Virus record (IMG/VR): IMGVR_UViG_3300049856_000469
Coordinates: 1 to 20,360 of that record
DNA: 20,360 bases
Reading direction: 5' to 3' (one strand)
Source of the DNA: a virus
In this document: one piece after another, positions 4,437-17,430 of the stretch
Position numbering within the stretch: the first letter of the stretch is position 1
Layout of the letters: each line of letters opens with the position of its first letter
The notes under the pieces: model-generated
Seen by the model: the letters and a program-made list of their open reading frames with translations, nothing else
What the model was told of the DNA's origin: nothing
The model's database searches: none
Position numbers and translations under genes: made by a program

Positions 4437-4747
4437 CGCCGTGGAACCCGGGCCGCGTGTGGAAAGCCGACGCGAAGATGGGCTTCCTCGGGCGCAAGCC
4501 TGCGCGCAAGGGCGGCACGGCGCAGCCGCTGCACACGGGCGTGACTGTCGACCTCGAGGCGGCCTTGCGGGCGTCCGCACCGGCGCTGACGGTGTGGCGG
4601 GCGTCGGAGGCGACGGGCGGCGCTCTGCTGTACTCGGGCGGCGTCCTCGACGCGTGGCCGGCGTGGGTGGTTGAGGTGCTGCAGGTGGCACAGGCGGAGA
4701 TGGGCAGCATCAAGGCGTTCCTGATGACGGAGGCGAGCGATGGCTGA
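4002..4747 (+). CDS. Tail assembly chaperone, frameshifted long form (gpGT-like)
   Basis: The gene is read as 4002-4376 joined to 4376-4747 by a -1 shift, giving about 248 residues. The shared N-terminus runs to Ala-Asp-Phe-Phe and then continues Arg-Ala-Ala-Leu-Trp-Tyr-Gly in the -1 frame. The T-like domain is rich in Trp and helices and ends Ala-Ser-Asp-Gly. The -1 frame has no good start codon of its own near the junction. Its stop at 4745-4747 overlaps the tape measure start at 4740. In lambda, GT is needed in a fixed low ratio to G to load the tube protein onto the tape measure. Layout, heptamer and hairpin all agree; product abundance is inferred. Confidence 0.8.
4370..4376 (+). promoter_or_regulatory. 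Slippery heptamer T TTT TTC for -1 ribosomal frameshifting
   Basis: In the chaperone reading frame the codons are GAT-TTT-TTC. A one-base backward slip re-pairs both tRNAs as TTT-TTT, a full P-site match and a wobble A-site match. It is the only such run in the gene and lies just where the coding character passes from the zero frame to the -1 frame. Confidence 0.85.
4387..4408 (+). promoter_or_regulatory. Frameshift-stimulating hairpin
   Basis: A perfect 7-bp stem, CTGGTAC (4387-4393) with GTACCAG (4402-4408), encloses an 8-base loop. It begins ten bases after the slippery heptamer, slightly longer than the usual 5-9 base spacing but suited to pausing a ribosome near it. Confidence 0.65.
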
Positions 4748-5159
4748 TCTGCAGCTGCGCATCATGGGCGAGGACAACGCCTCGGCCGCTTTCTCGGGCG
4801 TCTCGTCCGCCGCAAGCGCAGCCGGGCAGGCCATCATCAGCTTTACTCGCGACTCGCTCAAAGCCTACGCCGAGTCCGAGCGCGCTCAGCGCCAGTTGTC
4901 GCTCGTCGCCAAGGGCCTCAGCGGCGCGTTTCAGGAGCAGGCCAAGGCTCTCGCCGAGACGAACCTCGTCAGCGACGAGACGGTGATGGGCCTGCAGACG
5001 ATGTTGTTGCGGTACGGCGAGGCGCCGGCCGCTGTCGAGGGCACCACACAGGCGATTCTCGACTACGCCGCAGCCACCGGGAACGACGCACGCGCCGCCA
5101 CCGACGCTCTGTGTCGAGGCAGGAACGGGACACTTCAAGGGCCTTGGCATCACCATTGA
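4740..5159 (+). CDS. Tape measure protein, N-terminal part (frame broken near 5110)
   Basis: The gene starts at ATG 4740, inside the end of the chaperone long form. The first ~123 residues have tape measure character: an N-terminal strand (Leu-Gln-Leu-Arg-Ile) followed by long Ala/Ser/Glu helices. Around 5109-5113 the coding character moves to another frame, and this frame ends in unlike text (Arg-Asn-Gly-Thr-Leu-Gln-Gly-Pro-Trp then three His) at TGA 5159. The piece that belongs with it continues as 5110-6279. Joined, the protein would be about 513 residues, predicting a short tail of roughly 75-80 nm at 1.5 angstrom per residue. A sequence error, a real deletion or, less likely, recoding would explain the break. 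Confidence 0.7.
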   Translation: MADLQLRIMGEDNASAAFSGVSSAASAAGQAIISFTRDSLKAYAESERAQRQLSLVAKGLSGAFQEQAKALAETNLVSDETVMGLQTMLLRYGEAPAAVEGTTQAILDYAAATGNDARAATDALCRGRNGTLQGPWHHH

Positions 5160-5184
5160 GGCCACCGGCAACAAGACGAAGGAC

Positions 5185-6279
5185 ATGGCTCTCGCCGTGG
5201 CCGCGCTCTCCGCGAAGTTCGGCGGCGCGGCTGGTGAAGACGCGAAGTCACTCAACGGACAGGCACGTGGCGCAAAGGAGGCCTTCGGCGAGTTGCAGGA
5301 GACCTTCGGCAGCTTCATCGCGTCGGTAGGCTCAAAGACTGGCGCGCTTGAGGCCGTGACGAAGGCGCTCCGCGACATGACGTCAGGCATGGAGCTGGCG
5401 TCGAAGATGTCATTGCGCTCGCTCATCTCGCAGGCCGGGCAAGACGGGATGATGTCGAAGACGCTCGGCACCGCGTCTGGCGGGTTGCTGCTGCCATCGA
5501 CGATGCTGGCCGATGCGCTGATGGCTGGCAGCAAGGAGACTCAGGACAAGGCCAACGCAGAGAAGGCCGCGCTCGTCTGGAAGGAGCTTCAGGACGAGGA
5601 GTCAAACAAGAAAGCCATCGCGTCCAACGGCGGGGTGAATGACTTCTCCGCATTCGAGATGGACCTGACGGGCGGGAAGAAGGGTGGCGGGGCTGGTGCT
5701 GGTGGCGGCGGCGGGGTGATGGACTTCAGCCGCTCCGAGATGGACCTGCGACCCGTGCAGGAGTTCGACCTCAACGACGTCATCAACACCGACTCCAAGG
5801 CCCGTGAGCGTCGCTTCGAGGAAGAGGCGAAGGCGCAGGCAGCCGGGCTGAAGAAGCACTTCGACGAGATGGAGCGCATGGCCTCGGCAGCTGCCAAGAC
5901 GCTCGCCGCGCAGCAGCAGCAGTTCGCCAAGGCAGGCGCGGACATCGGAGCCGCCTTCGTCAACAGCATCAGCGGCGCGCTCGAGTCGCTCGCCAGCGGC
6001 GGAGAGCAGGACGCTGGGAAGATTCTCGCGTCCATTCTCGCCGGCGTGCTGTCGACGGTCGGCAGCGTCGTCGGCAACCTCCTCCTGCCCGGCATCGGTG
6101 GGGCGCTCGGCGGCGCCATCGGCGGCCTCGCAGGCGCGGGCGTGCGCGCGGCAGCCAACGGCCCCAGCGTCACCGTCAACACGTTCGACTCGCGCAGCAC
6201 TCGTGAGTTCTTCGAGAACGACGGCGGCCGAGGCTTCTACAACGCGCAGCGCACCGGGCGCGGACAGGGAGGACGCTGA
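5185..6279 (+). CDS. Tape measure protein, C-terminal part
   Basis: The first ATG is 5185, but matching coding sequence in this frame runs back to about 5110 (Val-Glu-Ala-Gly-Thr-Gly-His-Phe-Lys-Gly-Leu-Gly), so it is best read as the continuation of the 4740 gene. The piece contains long helices, a Gly-rich linker (residues ~165-180), a coiled-coil stretch with Gln-Gln-Gln, and a membrane-like Gly/Ala/Leu segment near residues 280-320. It closes with Val-Thr-Val-Asn-Thr-Phe-Asp-Ser-Arg and a Gly/Arg-rich end, a C-terminus typical of siphophage tape measures. The hydrophobic segment fits a role in membrane passage of DNA. The stop overlaps the next start as TGATG. Confidence 0.75.
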   Translation: MALAVAALSAKFGGAAGEDAKSLNGQARGAKEAFGELQETFGSFIASVGSKTGALEAVTKALRDMTSGMELASKMSLRSLISQAGQDGMMSKTLGTASGGLLLPSTMLADALMAGSKETQDKANAEKAALVWKELQDEESNKKAIASNGGVNDFSAFEMDLTGGKKGGGAGAGGGGGVMDFSRSEMDLRPVQEFDLNDVINTDSKARERRFEEEAKAQAAGLKKHFDEMERMASAAAKTLAAQQQQFAKAGADIGAAFVNSISGALESLASGGEQDAGKILASILAGVLSTVGSVVGNLLLPGIGGALGGAIGGLAGAGVRAAANGPSVTVNTFDSRSTREFFENDGGRGFYNAQRTGRGQGGR

Positions 6280-11687: not shown

Positions 11688-12059
11688 ATGGTTGATGAGC
11701 CCGCACCTTCTGGCCCGACAACGGCTGAACAGCCCGTCACCAACCGCACGCTGCACAGCGAGTTCCTCGCCTTCTTTCGACGGCAATTCGGCGGGAACGT
11801 GTTGGCGCTCGTCATCGTCGGGGGTAGCGCGGTGCTCGGGGCGTGGCGAGCTGTGGCGGGCGAGGCTCGCGCCCAGGCTGACGCCGGCGTGCTGCCCGTC
11901 GCCATCAAGGTGGAGGACCTCGACCGACGCGTGAAGCGGGTGGAGGACCAGACCGTCGAAGTGCAAGCCGACATTCGAGCCCTCTACAAAGCAGTGATGA
12001 CGGGCCGCCCCCAGGAGCGGCTCGAGCAGCCCGCACCTCGCGGAGACGCTGGCCCGTGA
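11688..12059 (+). CDS. Single-span membrane protein with coiled coil, lysis cassette
   Basis: This 123-residue protein starts at ATG 11688. It has a Pro/Thr-rich N-terminus, a membrane helix at ~36-53 (Val-Leu-Ala-Leu-Val-Ile-Val-Gly-Gly), and then an Ala-rich and charged helix with heptads (Val-Glu-Asp-Leu-Asp-Arg-Arg-Val-Lys-Arg-Val-Glu-Asp, ~71-105). The predicted topology is N-in, with the coiled coil in the periplasm. Its GTGA overlap with the NlpC/P60 hydrolase gene puts it in the lysis block. It could be a holin, an inner spanin or a helper of the hydrolase; the sequence does not decide. Confidence 0.5.
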   Translation: MVDEPAPSGPTTAEQPVTNRTLHSEFLAFFRRQFGGNVLALVIVGGSAVLGAWRAVAGEARAQADAGVLPVAIKVEDLDRRVKRVEDQTVEVQADIRALYKAVMTGRPQERLEQPAPRGDAGP

Positions 12060-12631
12060 CGGCTGCCGAGTGGGCCAACGTCGCCGGCGCCTTTGAGCGT
12101 CGCGTGCTGCTGAAGGCAATGGGCCAGAAGGGCTTCCCCGGCGCGTCGACTCCGTACGTGTGGAAGGGGAAGGGCGACGTCGCGTTCGACGTGCAGAAGG
12201 GCCTGCGTCCGTGGCTGACGTCCGAGGTGCGGCCGGGCGGGAAGGCCTTCGATTGCTCTGGCTTCGTCCTCTGGGCGGCGCGAGAAGTGACGGCCATCGA
12301 CGTTCGCTCGAAGTGGAACGCGCAAGTCATCCTCGACGCTTGCCGTGAGTGGGAGTCGGCCGAGCCGCTGCATGCGACGCTGCGCTTCTACGGCGTGTCC
12401 CGGAAGGACATCACGCACGTGGCCTTCGGGTTGGTGGCGGCCCGCGATGCGATGCCGTGCCTCGTCCTCGAGGCGGCCGGCGCTGGCTCCGACGCCACCA
12501 GCGAGACGAAGGCGCGCGAACTCGGCGCAGAGGTTCGCTTCGTCGAGGACAAGCGCCCCGACTTCCGGTGCGACGTCCCCTTGTGGGCGCTCGGCGTCGG
12601 GCTGGGTCACCTCGCGAGGCCTGCGCTGTGA
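12056..12631 (+). CDS. NlpC/P60-family cell-wall hydrolase (endolysin candidate)
   Basis: This 191-residue protein starts at GTG 12056. It shows the NlpC/P60 core: Tyr-Val-Trp-Lys-Gly near 34-38, Phe-Asp-Cys-Ser-Gly-Phe-Val with catalytic Cys67, His121 in Thr-His-Val-Ala-Phe-Gly-Leu, and Leu-Glu-Ala-Ala-Gly-Ala near 138-143, where the family usually has its third polar residue. Enzymes of this family cut gamma-D-glutamyl-diaminopimelate or similar peptide bonds in murein. There is no signal peptide, so release would need a holin. Neighbouring membrane-protein genes support an endolysin role. The alternative, a tail-associated murein hydrolase, is less likely because it lies past the tail cluster. 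The stop overlaps the next start (TGATG). Confidence 0.75.
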   Translation: MTAAEWANVAGAFERRVLLKAMGQKGFPGASTPYVWKGKGDVAFDVQKGLRPWLTSEVRPGGKAFDCSGFVLWAAREVTAIDVRSKWNAQVILDACREWESAEPLHATLRFYGVSRKDITHVAFGLVAARDAMPCLVLEAAGAGSDATSETKARELGAEVRFVEDKRPDFRCDVPLWALGVGLGHLARPAL

Positions 12632-12744
12632 TGTCCTACGAGCTCGAGATGCGGCTGCTTCGACGGCGCGTCCGTCGGCTCCGGGCCGCTCTCCTCATCA
12701 TCGCCTTCGGCTCCACCGTCGGCCTGTGCCTCCTCACCCGCTGA
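12631..12744 (+). CDS. 37-residue single-span membrane peptide
   Basis: ATG 12631 lies in a TGATG overlap with the hydrolase gene. The peptide has a strongly basic N-terminus (Arg-Leu-Leu-Arg-Arg-Arg-Val-Arg-Arg-Leu-Arg) and one hydrophobic helix (Ala-Leu-Leu-Ile-Ile-Ala-Phe-Gly). By the positive-inside rule the N-terminus stays in the cytoplasm. Overlap and position support a real gene; a role as a small holin or antiholin is a guess. Confidence 0.5.
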   Translation: MSYELEMRLLRRRVRRLRAALLIIAFGSTVGLCLLTR

Positions 12745-12755: not shown

Positions 12756-13205
12756 ATGGACACCTCGAAGCCCCTTCTCTCTGGCCCCGCGGCCCTCATC
12801 GTCGGCACCATTGGCGGCCTCGCCGCGGCCGCGTCAGCCTTCGTCCCTGCGCCGTGGGGCGCGCTGGTGATGGTGTTGGGCTTCGTCGCCTGCGTCGTCG
12901 CGGGCGTCGCCAGCCCGATGCCCAAGTTCGCCGCGGGCAAGCCGGTGCTGCAGGGCACGGCGCTCGTCGGCGCGCTGGCCGTCTCCGGCCTCGTGGAGCA
13001 GCTCTACACGGTGCTGCCTGCTGGCTGGCCGCAGGGGCTCGCGCTCGGCGTGTCGGGGTTGCTGGCCTTCCTCACCGGCAAGGCGGCCCCTGGGCCTGCT
13101 GTGCCCGCTGGGCCGTCGCCTGTGGAACTGGGCTCGACGGCTGGCGGCGCGGTGGTGACGCTCTCGGACGCGGCGGAGACGTTCCGCAAGGGGCCGAACC
13201 CGTGA
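12756..13205 (+). CDS. Four-helix membrane protein, holin candidate
   Basis: This 149-residue protein has about four hydrophobic segments: ~13-31 (Leu-Ile-Val-Gly-Thr-Ile-Gly-Gly-Leu), ~34-53 (Trp-Gly-Ala-Leu-Val-Met-Val-Leu-Gly), ~67-85 and ~92-108. A Pro/Gly/Ala-rich cytoplasmic-type tail and a charged end (Phe-Arg-Lys-Gly-Pro-Asn-Pro) follow. Small multi-span proteins next to an endolysin gene are usually holins, which time lysis by opening the inner membrane. I do not recognise a specific holin family. Its stop overlaps the GTG of the Acb2-like gene. Confidence 0.55.
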   Translation: MDTSKPLLSGPAALIVGTIGGLAAAASAFVPAPWGALVMVLGFVACVVAGVASPMPKFAAGKPVLQGTALVGALAVSGLVEQLYTVLPAGWPQGLALGVSGLLAFLTGKAAPGPAVPAGPSPVELGSTAGGAVVTLSDAAETFRKGPNP

Positions 13206-13447
13206 ACGAGCCCATCTTGCAGTTCTTCAAGTTCGACCACCTGAAGGAGCCACTGCGCTCGGTGTCGATGCGCTTTTGCGACCTCGCGCAGCATGTCGTC
13301 GACACCCTCCCGCGCAACCCCGAGCGCACCGTCGCGCTGCGGAAGCTGCTCGAAGCGAAGGACGCTGCCGTGCGTGCGCGGCTCTTCGTCGAAGAGTCAC
13401 AGCCGAGGCCCATGCTGACCGGCGTTCCTCCGGGCCCAACGCCGTGA
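13202..13447 (+). CDS. Acb2/Tad1 hairpin-domain protein (candidate cyclic-nucleotide sponge)
   Basis: GTG 13202 in a GTGA overlap gives 81 residues. Residues ~6-62 match my memory of the Acb2/Tad1 helical-hairpin family: Phe-Phe-Lys-Phe-Asp-His-Leu, Pro-Leu-Arg-x-Val-Ser, a helix with Asp-Leu-Ala-x-x-Val-Val, then Leu-Pro-Arg-Asn-Pro-Glu-Arg-Thr-Val-Ala-Leu-Arg-Lys-Leu-Leu-Glu-Ala-Lys-Asp-Ala-Ala-Val-Arg. Known members such as phage PaMx33 Acb2 bind cyclic di- and trinucleotides and so block CBASS immunity. The Glu-Arg-x-x-Ala-Leu-x-x-Leu-x-x-Ala-x-x-x-x-Val/Asn-Arg/Ala pattern is the family's second helix. The C-terminal ~18 residues are Pro-rich. Assignment is by recalled motif only; ligand and activity are inferred. 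Confidence 0.65.
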   Translation: MNEPILQFFKFDHLKEPLRSVSMRFCDLAQHVVDTLPRNPERTVALRKLLEAKDAAVRARLFVEESQPRPMLTGVPPGPTP

Positions 13448-13779
13448 TCACCCGCGCCGCCGCCATCGTGCTCGCACTGCTGGCAGGGGAAGCGCGAGCC
13501 GATGACGGCGGCATCGAAGGCGAGGGGCTCGTGCTCGAGGTGCGCAGCGGTGTCGTCACCCTTCCGTCCGGCGCCGTGCGCAGCATCGACGCGGGCGTGT
13601 ACCTCGACGAGGTGGCCGCCGTGCGTGCTGCGCGAGAGTTGGCGTCAGCGCGGGCGGAACTGCTGGCGCGTCGCATGGTGCCCGTGCAGGCCGTCACGCC
13701 CGGCTACGTGACGCTGCTGGCGGCCCTGTCACTCGTCGGCGGGCTCGTCCTCGGGCTGTGGCTGCGCGGGCTGTGGTGA
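13444..13779 (+). CDS. Signal-peptide protein with C-terminal membrane anchor
   Basis: GTG 13444 overlaps the previous stop (GTGA); 111 residues. The first ~19 residues read as a cleavable signal peptide (Ile-Val-Leu-Ala-Leu-Leu-Ala, then Ala-Arg-Ala before Asp-Asp-Gly). A periplasmic part follows, with a short beta section (Leu-Val-Leu-Glu-Val-Arg-Ser-Gly-Val-Val) and an Ala/Glu/Arg helix of coiled-coil type (~55-77). A C-terminal helix at ~87-108 (Val-Thr-Leu-Leu-Ala-Ala-Leu-Ser-Leu-Val-Gly-Gly) would anchor it in the inner membrane. Last in the lysis cassette, it recalls a unimolecular spanin in layout but has no lipobox cysteine. I recognise no family. Confidence 0.5.
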   Translation: MITRAAAIVLALLAGEARADDGGIEGEGLVLEVRSGVVTLPSGAVRSIDAGVYLDEVAAVRAARELASARAELLARRMVPVQAVTPGYVTLLAALSLVGGLVLGLWLRGLW

Positions 13780-15157: not shown

Positions 15158-15444
15158 CGCGGCACCTCGAAGTTGTCGCGGGTGGCGAGGTCGACGAGGA
15201 CCGGGCCGATGTGAAAGTCGAACTCGAGGTCGCACATCGTCGCGAACGCTGAGGCCATCTCCTCGGTTGGGAAAATCGCATCGGGAGGTCGCGAGTCCTC
15301 GCCACCCACCTGACGCCACAGCCCCCACATCACCAGATCCTCGAAGCGTTCGAGGTCGTGAACGCCCTCTCGAATCCACTGCGCAATGCGTGCCTTGCGG
15401 TCTTCTCGGGCCTCGATTGCTGCTTTGATGTTCGCGTCGCTCAT
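15154..15444 (-). CDS. Hypothetical protein, 96 residues
   Basis: ATG 15444 overlaps the stop of the ParB-like gene (ATGA) and its own stop overlaps the HTH gene (ATGA), so it sits in a tightly coupled run. It has a charged N-terminal helix (Ala-Ala-Ile-Glu-Ala-Arg-Glu-Asp-Arg), Trp-Ile-Arg-Glu-Gly, a central Phe-Glu-Asp-Leu-Val-Met-Trp-Gly-Leu-Trp-Arg, and an acidic/aromatic C-terminal half (Glu-Phe-Asp-Phe-His-Ile-Gly). Not recognised. Confidence 0.6.
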   Translation of the reverse strand: MSDANIKAAIEAREDRKARIAQWIREGVHDLERFEDLVMWGLWRQVGGEDSRPPDAIFPTEEMASAFATMCDLEFDFHIGPVLVDLATRDNFEVPR

Positions 15445-17021
15445 GCCGCCTTCTTCCCGGCCTTCTTCGCCTGGGCCTTGTCGGCCGCCTTGAGCTTCGC
15501 GTTCGTCTCGGCCGCCGGCGGGTTGAGCGCCGCCTTGCGGAGCGCATCGACGTCCAGCTTCACCAGCTTCGCGGCCGACTCGACGACGTCGGGGCCGTGC
15601 TCGAGCGCGTCGACGAGGAGAAGGGAGAGCCGCTGCTCGTCGGTCAGCTTCTTCGCGTCGACGGGGACGCCGGCGAGCTCGCGGAGGTCGTCAGCCCTCC
15701 AGCCGCCCTCGACGTGTGCCTGGAAAAGCAGCCCCATCACCTTGAAGATGTCGCCCTTCAGCTGCTTCAGCGCGGCCGCACGCACGGCATCGGCCACGGC
15801 CTTGTCAGCGGCCGCCTCCTTCTTCCGCTTGGCCTGCTGCTTCTTATAGGAGTCGTCGCCGTGGCGACCGTAGCTGCCGCCGTGAGGGCTCTTCGCGACG
15901 GCCTTCGCAGCCTTCGCCTCCGTCTTCGCCAGCAGCTTCGCGGCCGCCTTGCGCTCGACGTACGTGTGCGGCTTGCCTTCCTTGTCGAGGACGACGACGG
16001 CCGCCTTCTTGAAATCCTCCTTCGAGAGCAGCTGCTTCAGCGACTTCATGCCCGCGGGCTTCTCGGTGGGCAGCGCGTACTTCTCCTCTGCGCTGTACGT
16101 GAGGCTGCCGTCCCAGTTGGTGAGCGTCTTCGCCGCGTCGCCGGCCAGCACTGACAGGCCCTCTTCCTTCAGCTGGGCCAGCACGCGCGCCGTCGACTCG
16201 TTCTGCTTCGTCTGCCAGCACGCACCGTCGAGGCACGTGTCGGCCTTCACATCGGCGAAGGAGACCTTGTCCTGGCTGGTGCGCTTCGGGCACGACAGGC
16301 AGCTGCCGGCGACGCTGAAAAGCGTCACGTCCTTCGTGTCGAACGGCGCCTTCGCGATGACGCGGTTGAGTTCTCGGTCGAGCACGTCCTTCGCGTCGCG
16401 GTAGGAGAGGGTGCGCCAGTCCGACATCTGCCGCCTGTCGCCGCCACCCTTCTTCCAGGTGTCGCCGCAGCGATCCTCCAATCTCTCGACGGCCTCTTCC
16501 TGCGCGGCCAGCGTCGGCAGCCGGGAAAGCAGCTCGCCGATGCTGGCGTTGAGGCCGTGATCGAGCACGAGCTCGCGGGCGCGCCCCTGCAGCTGGGCCA
16601 GCTTCATGCGCGAGTAGATGACGGTGCGCGACTTGCCCGTCTTCTCGGCGATGCTGTCGGCCGTGTAGCTGTGCTCCTTCACCAGCTTCGCGTACGCCTC
16701 GCCCTCCTCGAGCGCGTTGATGTCGGCGCGCACGACGTTCTCCAGCAGCGCCAGCTCGAGCAGCTCGGCGTCGGTGGCCTCGCGCACCATGCACGGCACC
16801 AGCTTTAGCCCGGCGGCCTTGGCGGCCCGCAGGCGACGCGCGCCGGCGATGACTTCGTACCGCTGGGCAACGGGCCGAACGAGGAGCGGCTCGAGCACGC
16901 CGCGCTCTTCGATGCTGGCGGCCAGCTCGGCGAGCTTCGTCTTGTCGAAGTCCTTGCGTGGGTTGAGGGGCGACTCGTCGATAAGGGAGACGGCGAGAGA
17001 GGCGAACGTCGGTGCGGCCAT
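15441..17021 (-). CDS. ParB-like nuclease/CTPase-fold DNA-binding protein with Cys insert
   Basis: ATG 17021 sits behind GGAG (17027-17030) and gives 526 residues. Residues ~8-100 are a ParB/Spo0J N-terminal domain: Asn-Pro-Arg-Lys near 20-23, Gly-Ala-Arg-Arg-Leu-Arg-Ala at 60-66 (the ParB Gly-Glu-Arg-Arg box with Ala for Glu), and Glu-Asn-Val-Val-Arg-Ala-Asp-Ile-Asn-Ala-Leu-Glu-Glu at ~94-106. A helix-turn-helix follows at ~119-140. Cys241, Cys244, Cys263 and Cys268 form a possible zinc site. The C-terminal half is Lys/Ala-rich with a charged linker. No ParA and no parS-like repeat is in view, so a partition role is unproven. Phage ParB-like proteins also serve as regulators or nucleases. 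Confidence 0.8.
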   Translation of the reverse strand: MAAPTFASLAVSLIDESPLNPRKDFDKTKLAELAASIEERGVLEPLLVRPVAQRYEVIAGARRLRAAKAAGLKLVPCMVREATDAELLELALLENVVRADINALEEGEAYAKLVKEHSYTADSIAEKTGKSRTVIYSRMKLAQLQGRARELVLDHGLNASIGELLSRLPTLAAQEEAVERLEDRCGDTWKKGGGDRRQMSDWRTLSYRDAKDVLDRELNRVIAKAPFDTKDVTLFSVAGSCLSCPKRTSQDKVSFADVKADTCLDGACWQTKQNESTARVLAQLKEEGLSVLAGDAAKTLTNWDGSLTYSAEEKYALPTEKPAGMKSLKQLLSKEDFKKAAVVVLDKEGKPHTYVERKAAAKLLAKTEAKAAKAVAKSPHGGSYGRHGDDSYKKQQAKRKKEAAADKAVADAVRAAALKQLKGDIFKVMGLLFQAHVEGGWRADDLRELAGVPVDAKKLTDEQRLSLLLVDALEHGPDVVESAAKLVKLDVDALRKAALNPPAAETNAKLKAADKAQAKKAGKKAA

Positions 17022-17040
17022 GGGTTCTCCGAGGTGGACT

Positions 17041-17118
17041 GCGAGGAATACGGCGCGCGGAATCGAACCGCGCCAACTCCAGGGCCGCATCTACCAGGGG
17101 TGTTTCGCGTCAGCCGTA
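17041..17118 (-). other. tRNA T-arm-like hairpin in the ParB-gene leader
   Basis: Read on the minus strand, the segment has a perfect T-arm: CGCGG, loop TTCGATT, CCGCG. After it comes GCCGTA, which can pair with TACGGC of the last dipeptide-repeat unit about 71 bases upstream. A GGTAGA segment looks like part of a D-loop. Only about 13 bases are left for an anticodon arm, so a full cloverleaf does not form. It could be a tRNA remnant, an attachment-site fragment or a chance hairpin. The acceptor-like pairing is weak evidence because the repeat offers many TACGGC copies. Confidence 0.3.
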
Positions 17119-17430
17119 GCCGTAGCCGTCGCCGTAGCCGTAGCCGTAGCCGTCGCCGTAGCCGTCGCCGTCGCCGGAGCCGGAGCCGGAGCCGGAGCCG
17201 TAGCCGTAGCCGTAGCCGTAGCCGTAGCCGTCGCCGGAGCCGTAGCCGTAGCCGTAGCCGTCGCCGTCGCCGGAGCCGGAGCCGTAGCCGTAGCCGTCGC
17301 CGGAGCCGGAGCCGTAGCCGTAGCCGTAGCCGTCGCCGTCGCCGGAGCCGGAGCCGTAGCCGTCGCCGTCGCCGGAGCCGGAGCCGGAGCCGTCTGAAAT
17401 CGGCGCAACGCCGATCGTCGGCGACGTCAC
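17110..17430 (-). CDS. [Tyr/Asp/Ser]-Gly dipeptide repeat protein
   Basis: GTG 17430 overlaps the stop of the DUF6948-like gene (GTGA), the same coupling used by many genes here, giving 106 residues. Twelve unique residues (Val-Thr-Ser-Pro-Thr-Ile-Gly-Val-Ala-Pro-Ile-Ser) are followed by 47 dipeptides X-Gly with X = Tyr (20), Ser (14) or Asp (13), and TGA directly after the last unit. Gly is always GGC; X is TAC, TCC or GAC. The order is directional (Ser runs, then Asp, then Tyr). The protein would be acidic, Gly-rich and disordered or sticky, like silk or low-complexity linkers. Because the repeat lacks stops in all frames, the frame choice rests on the GTGA coupling and the clean stop. Confidence 0.55.
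   Translation of the reverse strand: MTSPTIGVAPISDGSGSGSGDGDGYGSGSGDGDGYGYGYGSGSGDGYGYGSGSGDGDGYGYGYGSGDGYGYGYGYGYGSGSGSGSGDGDGYGDGYGYGYGDGYGYG
17113..17394. repeat. Hexanucleotide tandem array, 47 units of GCCGNN
   Basis: The array has 47 uninterrupted 6-base units without a single indel. Only the last two bases vary: GCCGTA (20), GCCGGA (14) and GCCGTC (13). Each variant is one base change away from GCCGTA. Every unit starts in phase, and the array begins and ends sharply. Confidence 0.95.
17399..17423. promoter_or_regulatory. Two overlapping inverted repeats at the start of the repeat gene
   Basis: ATCGGCG-CAA-CGCCGAT (17399-17415, 7-bp stem) and CGCCGA-TCG-TCGGCG (17409-17423, 6-bp stem) share bases 17409-17415 and so cannot form together. 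They lie over codons ~3-11 of the dipeptide-repeat gene, next to the GTGA junction, and could control its translation or act as an operator. Confidence 0.4.

Follow-up and report, generated by a model that had tools for sequence, protein, structure and literature searches.

The gene and its neighbours

The window, by which we mean the whole stretch of viral DNA analysed (20,360 nucleotides), contains at 13202-13447 of the plus strand an open reading frame of 81 codons with the product MNEPILQFFKFDHLKEPLRSVSMRFCDLAQHVVDTLPRNPERTVALRKLLEAKDAAVRARLFVEESQPRPMLTGVPPGPTP. A GTGA at the beginning of this gene combines its GTG start with the stop of its upstream neighbour (12756-13205), and a second GTGA at its end combines its own stop with the GTG start of its downstream neighbour (13444-13779). 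The genes in this part of the window are the following:

12056..12631, plus strand: NlpC/P60-like protein, candidate endolysin (Pfam E 8.3e-4, 19.7 bits against a cut-off of 23)
12631..12744, plus strand: 37-aa ORF with a single TM segment, separating the NlpC-like gene from the holin candidate
12756..13205, plus strand: holin candidate with three hydrophobic segments; its stop and the start of the 81-aa gene overlap by 4 bases
13202..13447, plus strand: the 81-aa gene, whose product belongs to PHROG 1761/5120 and is a remote homologue of the Acb2/Tad1 hairpin and a candidate sponge for nucleotide signals
13444..13779, plus strand: spanin-like candidate of 111 aa, signal-like at the N terminus and with a TM segment at the C terminus; its start codon shares bases with the stop of the 81-aa gene

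An earlier note, made from the letters of this DNA, had described the 81-residue frame as an Acb2-like gene translationally coupled on both sides inside a lysis cassette. The frame is present, its GC3 (0.85) is in line with that of its neighbours and it belongs to a conserved family; the coupling is likewise confirmed, by 4-base overlaps with the holin candidate and with the downstream gene for an anchored-type protein. The lysis cassette is plausible, given holin-like, spanin-like and NlpC/P60-like neighbours, but it rests on weak matches: the NlpC/P60 similarity is below the Pfam cut-off, and the product of 12756-13205 is holin-like by its hydrophobic segments, yet it gave no family match.

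Two further observations concern other parts of the window. The tape-measure-like region (4740-6279) is divided between 4740-5159 and 5185-6279, ORFs that lie in different frames, possibly as a result of a frameshift, either programmed or from assembly. At about 17100-17420, a long simple repeat that translates as AVAVAVAGAGAG, or as RSRSRS in other frames, lies on the upstream side of the ParB-like gene at 15441-17090 (minus strand; PHROG 4715, E 1.4e-36).

A widespread protein family

This short gene of a soil-type phage falls in a very widespread, unnamed protein family. Its product directly matches PHROG 1761 (E 5.6e-24), PHROG 5120 (3.1e-16) and PHROG 1454 (0.0024), all three labelled 'unknown function'. 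A scan of IMG/VR yielded 551 related stretches and a scan of bacterial genomes a further 96, distributed over many phyla and mostly at loci with phage-like neighbours, while tblastn found relatives in 315 phage records, among them phages of Vibrio, Erwinia, Acinetobacter, Brevibacterium, Gordonia, Mycobacterium and Myxococcus. PHROG 1761/5120 spans phages of Proteobacteria, Actinobacteria, Myxococcota, Planctomycetes, Cyanobacteria and others. The family core, LPRNPERTVALRKLLEAKDAAVRA, is nearly invariant, and since the IMG/VR and genome scans start from exact motif patterns, part of this invariance is due to ascertainment, a bias from which the relatives found by tblastn are free. The 81-aa protein itself gave nothing in NCBIfam and PADLOC scans, no Pfam match and nothing in a phmmer search of the PDB with the single protein as query; a tblastn search with a guessed peptide as query also returned nothing.

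When the whole window was compared with phage records by megablast, a single match of 78 bases was obtained, located inside the 81-aa gene (13305-13382) and 84.6% identical to Myxococcus phage Mx4. It reflects extreme local conservation or recent exchange, and hints at a myxobacterial host. In the Acinetobacter phage records Ab1656-2, Acba_4, Acba_15 and Acba_16 the family gene is called 'occludin homology domain protein', a name that is a chance sub-threshold Pfam match (0.11-0.12 here) that has been propagated. One member (L228:5797-6189) carries an N-terminal extension of about 60 aa, GKFYTTRTGGVVGPVRAGPDGTYFWLGRTY..., which resembles a separate beta-rich domain; the top match in BFVD, in an Ochrobactrum phage, bears the name of an anti-TRAP domain. 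Domain fusions of this sort may be informative on function.

Position of the gene in phage genomes

The earlier note had regarded the lysis cassette as an unusual place for a defence antagonist, a view that the relatives contradict, as they are scattered over late operons, with terminase, portal, head, lysin or holin genes next to them. The family gene lies between TerS and TerL in Vibrio 1.066, upstream of portal in Vibrio martha, between the head morphogenesis and major capsid genes in Acinetobacter B1251, and between capsid and connectors in Gordonia Ruthy. On the lysis side, it follows the holin in Brevibacterium phage AGM1, adjoins the endolysin in Mx4 and, in Gordonia phage Jumbo, overlaps a lysin A gene at either end. 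The 113 immediate neighbours include members of the terminase, portal, sheath, head, endolysin and holin families. The lysis-side position of the 81-aa gene is one of several habitual late-operon sites and no anomaly. A tie of the family to lysis was considered and rejected, because lysin and holin genes were no more frequent among the neighbours than terminase, portal and head genes.

Two explanations other than defence antagonism could be drawn from gene position. The protein could be a regulator of lysis, such as an antiholin or a chaperone of holin or endolysin, coupled to the holin candidate with which its gene overlaps in the window; the arrangements in AGM1 and Jumbo would suit such a role. 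Most relatives, however, lie away from lysis genes, the 81-aa protein lacks a signal or TM segment, and a core that is near-invariant across phages of many phyla is ill-suited to a partner as variable as a holin, so that we regard this function as very improbable. The protein could instead be a structural or assembly accessory of the late operon (head, connector or lysis accessory) in which only a small helical hairpin is shared. The frequency of terminase, portal, head or lysis genes as immediate neighbours agrees with it, as do the tight 4-base overlaps, common in the family (39/125 upstream, 54/125 downstream). Against it, the gene is patchy in its presence and, unlike what would be expected of an assembly gene, moves freely among modules for head, tail and lysis and regions without structural genes; the sequence similarity to PF24729, far above that of shuffles, and the repeated Tad2-like neighbours described below also weigh against it.

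Remote homology to the Acb2/Tad1 hairpin

The Acb2/Tad1 hairpin pattern attributed to the protein by the earlier note could not be recovered with the curated profile, and it was recovered indirectly, through intermediate families, profile-profile comparison and structure prediction. The profile PF24729 (Acb2_Tad1_hairpin; curated cut-off 27 bits), whose search that note had proposed as a check, gave no match at E <= 1 for the 81-aa protein and none for 53 close relatives, while the positive controls T4 Vs.4 and PaMx33 Acb2 were detected at 7.1e-20 and 3.2e-18. Distant members of the family do produce sub-threshold matches, in the same part of the profile. The best is L249 from Brevibacterium sp. 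(E 3e-4, 21.4 bits), which is the sole PF24729 match at E <= 0.01 in the 4-Mb genome that holds it, followed by AGM1 gp27 (E 0.011) and the protein of Vibrio phage martha (E 0.057). A separate observation concerns Falsigemmobacter intermedius (genome G012), which also has a bona fide PF24729 gene (L290, E 3e-17) on a stretch absent from its family locus, L212.

The linking group is a clade of actinophage proteins that includes Mycobacterium phage Gage gp104 and Gordonia phage Bantam gp75, with 9ptq as solved relative, and whose tested representatives all pass PF24729, unlike the 81-aa protein, which falls under the cut-off. They have the same length, the same two-helix hairpin and the same order of features: F...H-P, a helix, and LP.G(R/P)E K/R..A L T/R K L. 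E A... A. The clade's M-F-W is K53-D54 and A55 in the family of the 81-aa protein, which differs from the clade also in R58. With hhalign, the broad alignment of the family (A3) matched that of the clade (A5) with a probability of 93%, E 2.8e-7 and a score of 41.3, to be compared with 11.2 for the reversed alignment and a maximum of 19.6 among 100 column shuffles. Searched against the window in six frames, the A5 profile had the 81-aa ORF as its best match (E 0.027); it matched 51 of 58 family members (Z=10000), and the reverse search 47 of 48. The same profile reached PDB 9ptq, 'Acb2 homolog 43', at E 4.7e-12 and the Tad1 structures at E about 5e-5.

Direct comparison of the family with canonical Acb2 (A2, the PaMx33/T4 sets) was not significant (hhalign probability 1.5%, E 0.035, inside the shuffle range). 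Nevertheless, A5 and A2, both accepted branches, reach only 66% with each other, and therefore the 81-aa family is no more remote from the actinophage clade than Acb2 is. The chain of significant steps, from the family to the clade and from the clade to 9ptq and Tad1, links the family to the superfamily; these comparisons support its placement as a remote member of the Acb2/Tad1-hairpin superfamily, connected through intermediate families. By test, the 81-aa protein is neither a curated PF24729 protein nor a canonical Acb2 or a Tad1. The family is likely a large unmodelled branch of the superfamily. A literature search on PHROG 1761/5120 found no paper, and an earlier description is possible in recent work on sponge diversity (Hadary 2025; Science 2026 eaea1761; Nat Commun 2026 TIR-caspase sponge).

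Predicted structure and conserved residues

The earlier note had held that a predicted fold lacking the helical hairpin and ligand pockets would tell against its proposal; AlphaFold2 does predict a two-helix hairpin for the 81-aa protein, with helices at residues 4-9, 16-35 and 40-66, a pLDDT of 88.7 and no strands. In the gene, the corresponding segments are:

13202..13246, plus strand: N-terminal segment, codons 1-15, with a short predicted helix (residues 4-9), conserved F9, an aromatic at 11 and invariant H13-L14
13247..13306, plus strand: hairpin helix 1, residues 16-35 (AlphaFold2)
13319..13399, plus strand: hairpin helix 2, residues 40-66, with ERTVALRKLLEAKDAAVRA; A45/A52/A56/R58 align to T4 Acb2

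The model of a control from the actinophage clade has helices at 13-36 and 41-64. The Acb2 monomer (Pseudomonas phage PaMx33 gp24; T4 Vs.4, PDB 7uq2) is built of the same elements, a short helix at the N terminus and two long ones that run antiparallel (PMC12043709). Tad1 (PDB 7uav, 8kbe) has a C-terminal hairpin of the same superfamily, related by way of the linking clade, preceded by an N-terminal antiparallel beta-sheet domain, in contrast to the strandless model of the 81-aa protein. Beyond close relatives, the named neighbours of the model in BFVD were repeatedly 'Acb2/Tad1 hairpin domain-containing' (ranks 7, 11-15, 19, 24, 25 and more). Foldseek and VIA-align searches of the PDB listed generic helical hairpins only and no Acb2 or Tad1; the actinophage control did have T4 Vs.4 (7uq2) listed first, but merely at E 2.8 and Z 7.1, and hence this search resolves small hairpins poorly.

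In T4 Vs.4, cGAMP is contacted by Y8, H11, K23, R79 and F82, and the hexamer involves L29, A66, A73 and A77 (PMC10097602). Ungapped alignment of helix 2 brings A66, A73, A77 and R79 of T4 onto A45, A52, A56 and R58 of the 81-aa protein, so that the three hexamer alanines and R79 are identical. Among 58 broad family members these residues are conserved in 47 (A45), 55 (A52), 56 (A56) and all 58 (R58). The hairpin is shorter than that of Acb2, the counterpart of F82 is L61, a non-aromatic residue, and there is no lysine at the position of K23. The K-x-K-G-Y motif of Acb2 with its stacking tyrosine (Y8/Y11) is absent from the 81-aa protein, whereas I8, G10 and Y11 are invariant within Acb2. Judging by the alignment, the N-terminal segment would be the counterpart of the Y8...H11 segment of T4 Acb2; position 11 is aromatic (Y/F/W) in 52 of the 58 members, and this aromatic and the invariant H13-L14 may stand in for Y8 and H11. 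Our reading of the residues is that assembly may have been conserved and the contacts with the ligand changed.

These residues bear on the more specific proposal that the protein is an anti-CBASS sponge of the Acb2 kind, putatively binding 3',3'-cGAMP and cA3. In favour of it are the remote superfamily homology, the correspondence of A45/A52/A56/R58 with the hexamer spine and R79, and the name, 'Acb2 homolog 43', of the best-named relative with a solved structure in the linking clade's searches. However, equivalents of the KGY motif, K23 and F82 are missing, the link to canonical Acb2 lacks significance, and the only anti-defence genes found co-localised with the family, the Tad2-like ones, are as much a pointer to Thoeris as to CBASS. 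We consider this specificity possible, though rather doubtful.

Tad2-like genes beside the family

Tad2 is a known signal sponge. A Tad2-like gene (PF11195, anti-Thoeris) appeared twice in the neighbour scan of family genes, and across 144 family-bearing records (79 viral or phage records and 65 whole genomes) it was present in 9, about 6%. Seven of the nine Tad2-like genes are less than 1.5 kb from the family gene, with gaps of 6, 239, 240, 279, 675, 919 and 1415 bp; of the 6 found in whole genomes, which span several megabases, 4 are within 300 bp of it. Three of these close pairs belong to related sphingomonad prophages, which brings the independent events down to about five. Tad2-like genes close to the family gene are found at L223:6186-6707, L227:6198-6746, L220:5684-5938, L246:1697-1975, L399:2822-3076 and L017:3128-3355, and at these six loci the two genes form small candidate anti-defence clusters in late operons. 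The Tad2-like protein has an unrelated fold and is a neighbour only. Acb4 (PF13876), another sponge family, was absent from 89 family-bearing records.

The wandering position of the family gene and its Tad2-like neighbours weaken both the structural-accessory and the lysis-regulator readings, and of the two we hold the former to be unlikely.

Proposed function

The interpretation that we favour is that of a divergent Acb2/Tad1-hairpin protein that probably sequesters a nucleotide second messenger of anti-phage defence. It is supported by the remote homology, the predicted hairpin fold, the counterparts of the hexamer alanines and R79, and the recurrent Tad2-like adjacency. The points against it are the nil result with PF24729, the E of 0.035 with canonical Acb2, the missing equivalents of KGY, K23 and F82, the PDB fold search that listed neither Acb2 nor Tad1, the share of family invariance due to ascertainment, and the small share of records with a Tad2-like gene, several of them related prophages. 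Signals of Thoeris or type III CRISPR are candidates on an equal footing with those of CBASS.

From what was computed, namely the gene, its wide conservation, its remote homology, its predicted fold and its co-localisation with Tad2-like genes, we infer an oligomer, ligand binding, timing of expression and an anti-defence effect, which can be combined in the following model. The two-helix hairpin with its short N-terminal helix would most likely oligomerize through the alanine face of helix 2. The putative sponge, expressed late together with the structural and lysis genes, would bind the nucleotide signal of a CBASS-, Thoeris- or type III CRISPR-type system. Sequestration of the signal would keep a suicide effector that is triggered late in infection inactive until lysis. 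Since the Panoptes decoy defence is triggered by Acb2-type sponges (PMC12657218), the 81-aa family could be sensed as well.

A broader proposal, which we put forward tentatively, is that PHROG 1761/5120 constitutes a major class of sponges whose invariant RKLLEAKD.AVR helix and F..H-L segment would read a signal unlike those of Acb2 and Tad1, possibly an undescribed messenger. With a sponge function, whatever the signal, one of the commonest small-gene families of 'unknown function' in tailed phages would gain a role that can be tested, and its near-invariant core would offer access to a signal shared by many bacterial phyla. If these proteins are sponges, far more phages would counter nucleotide-signalling defence than present models detect.
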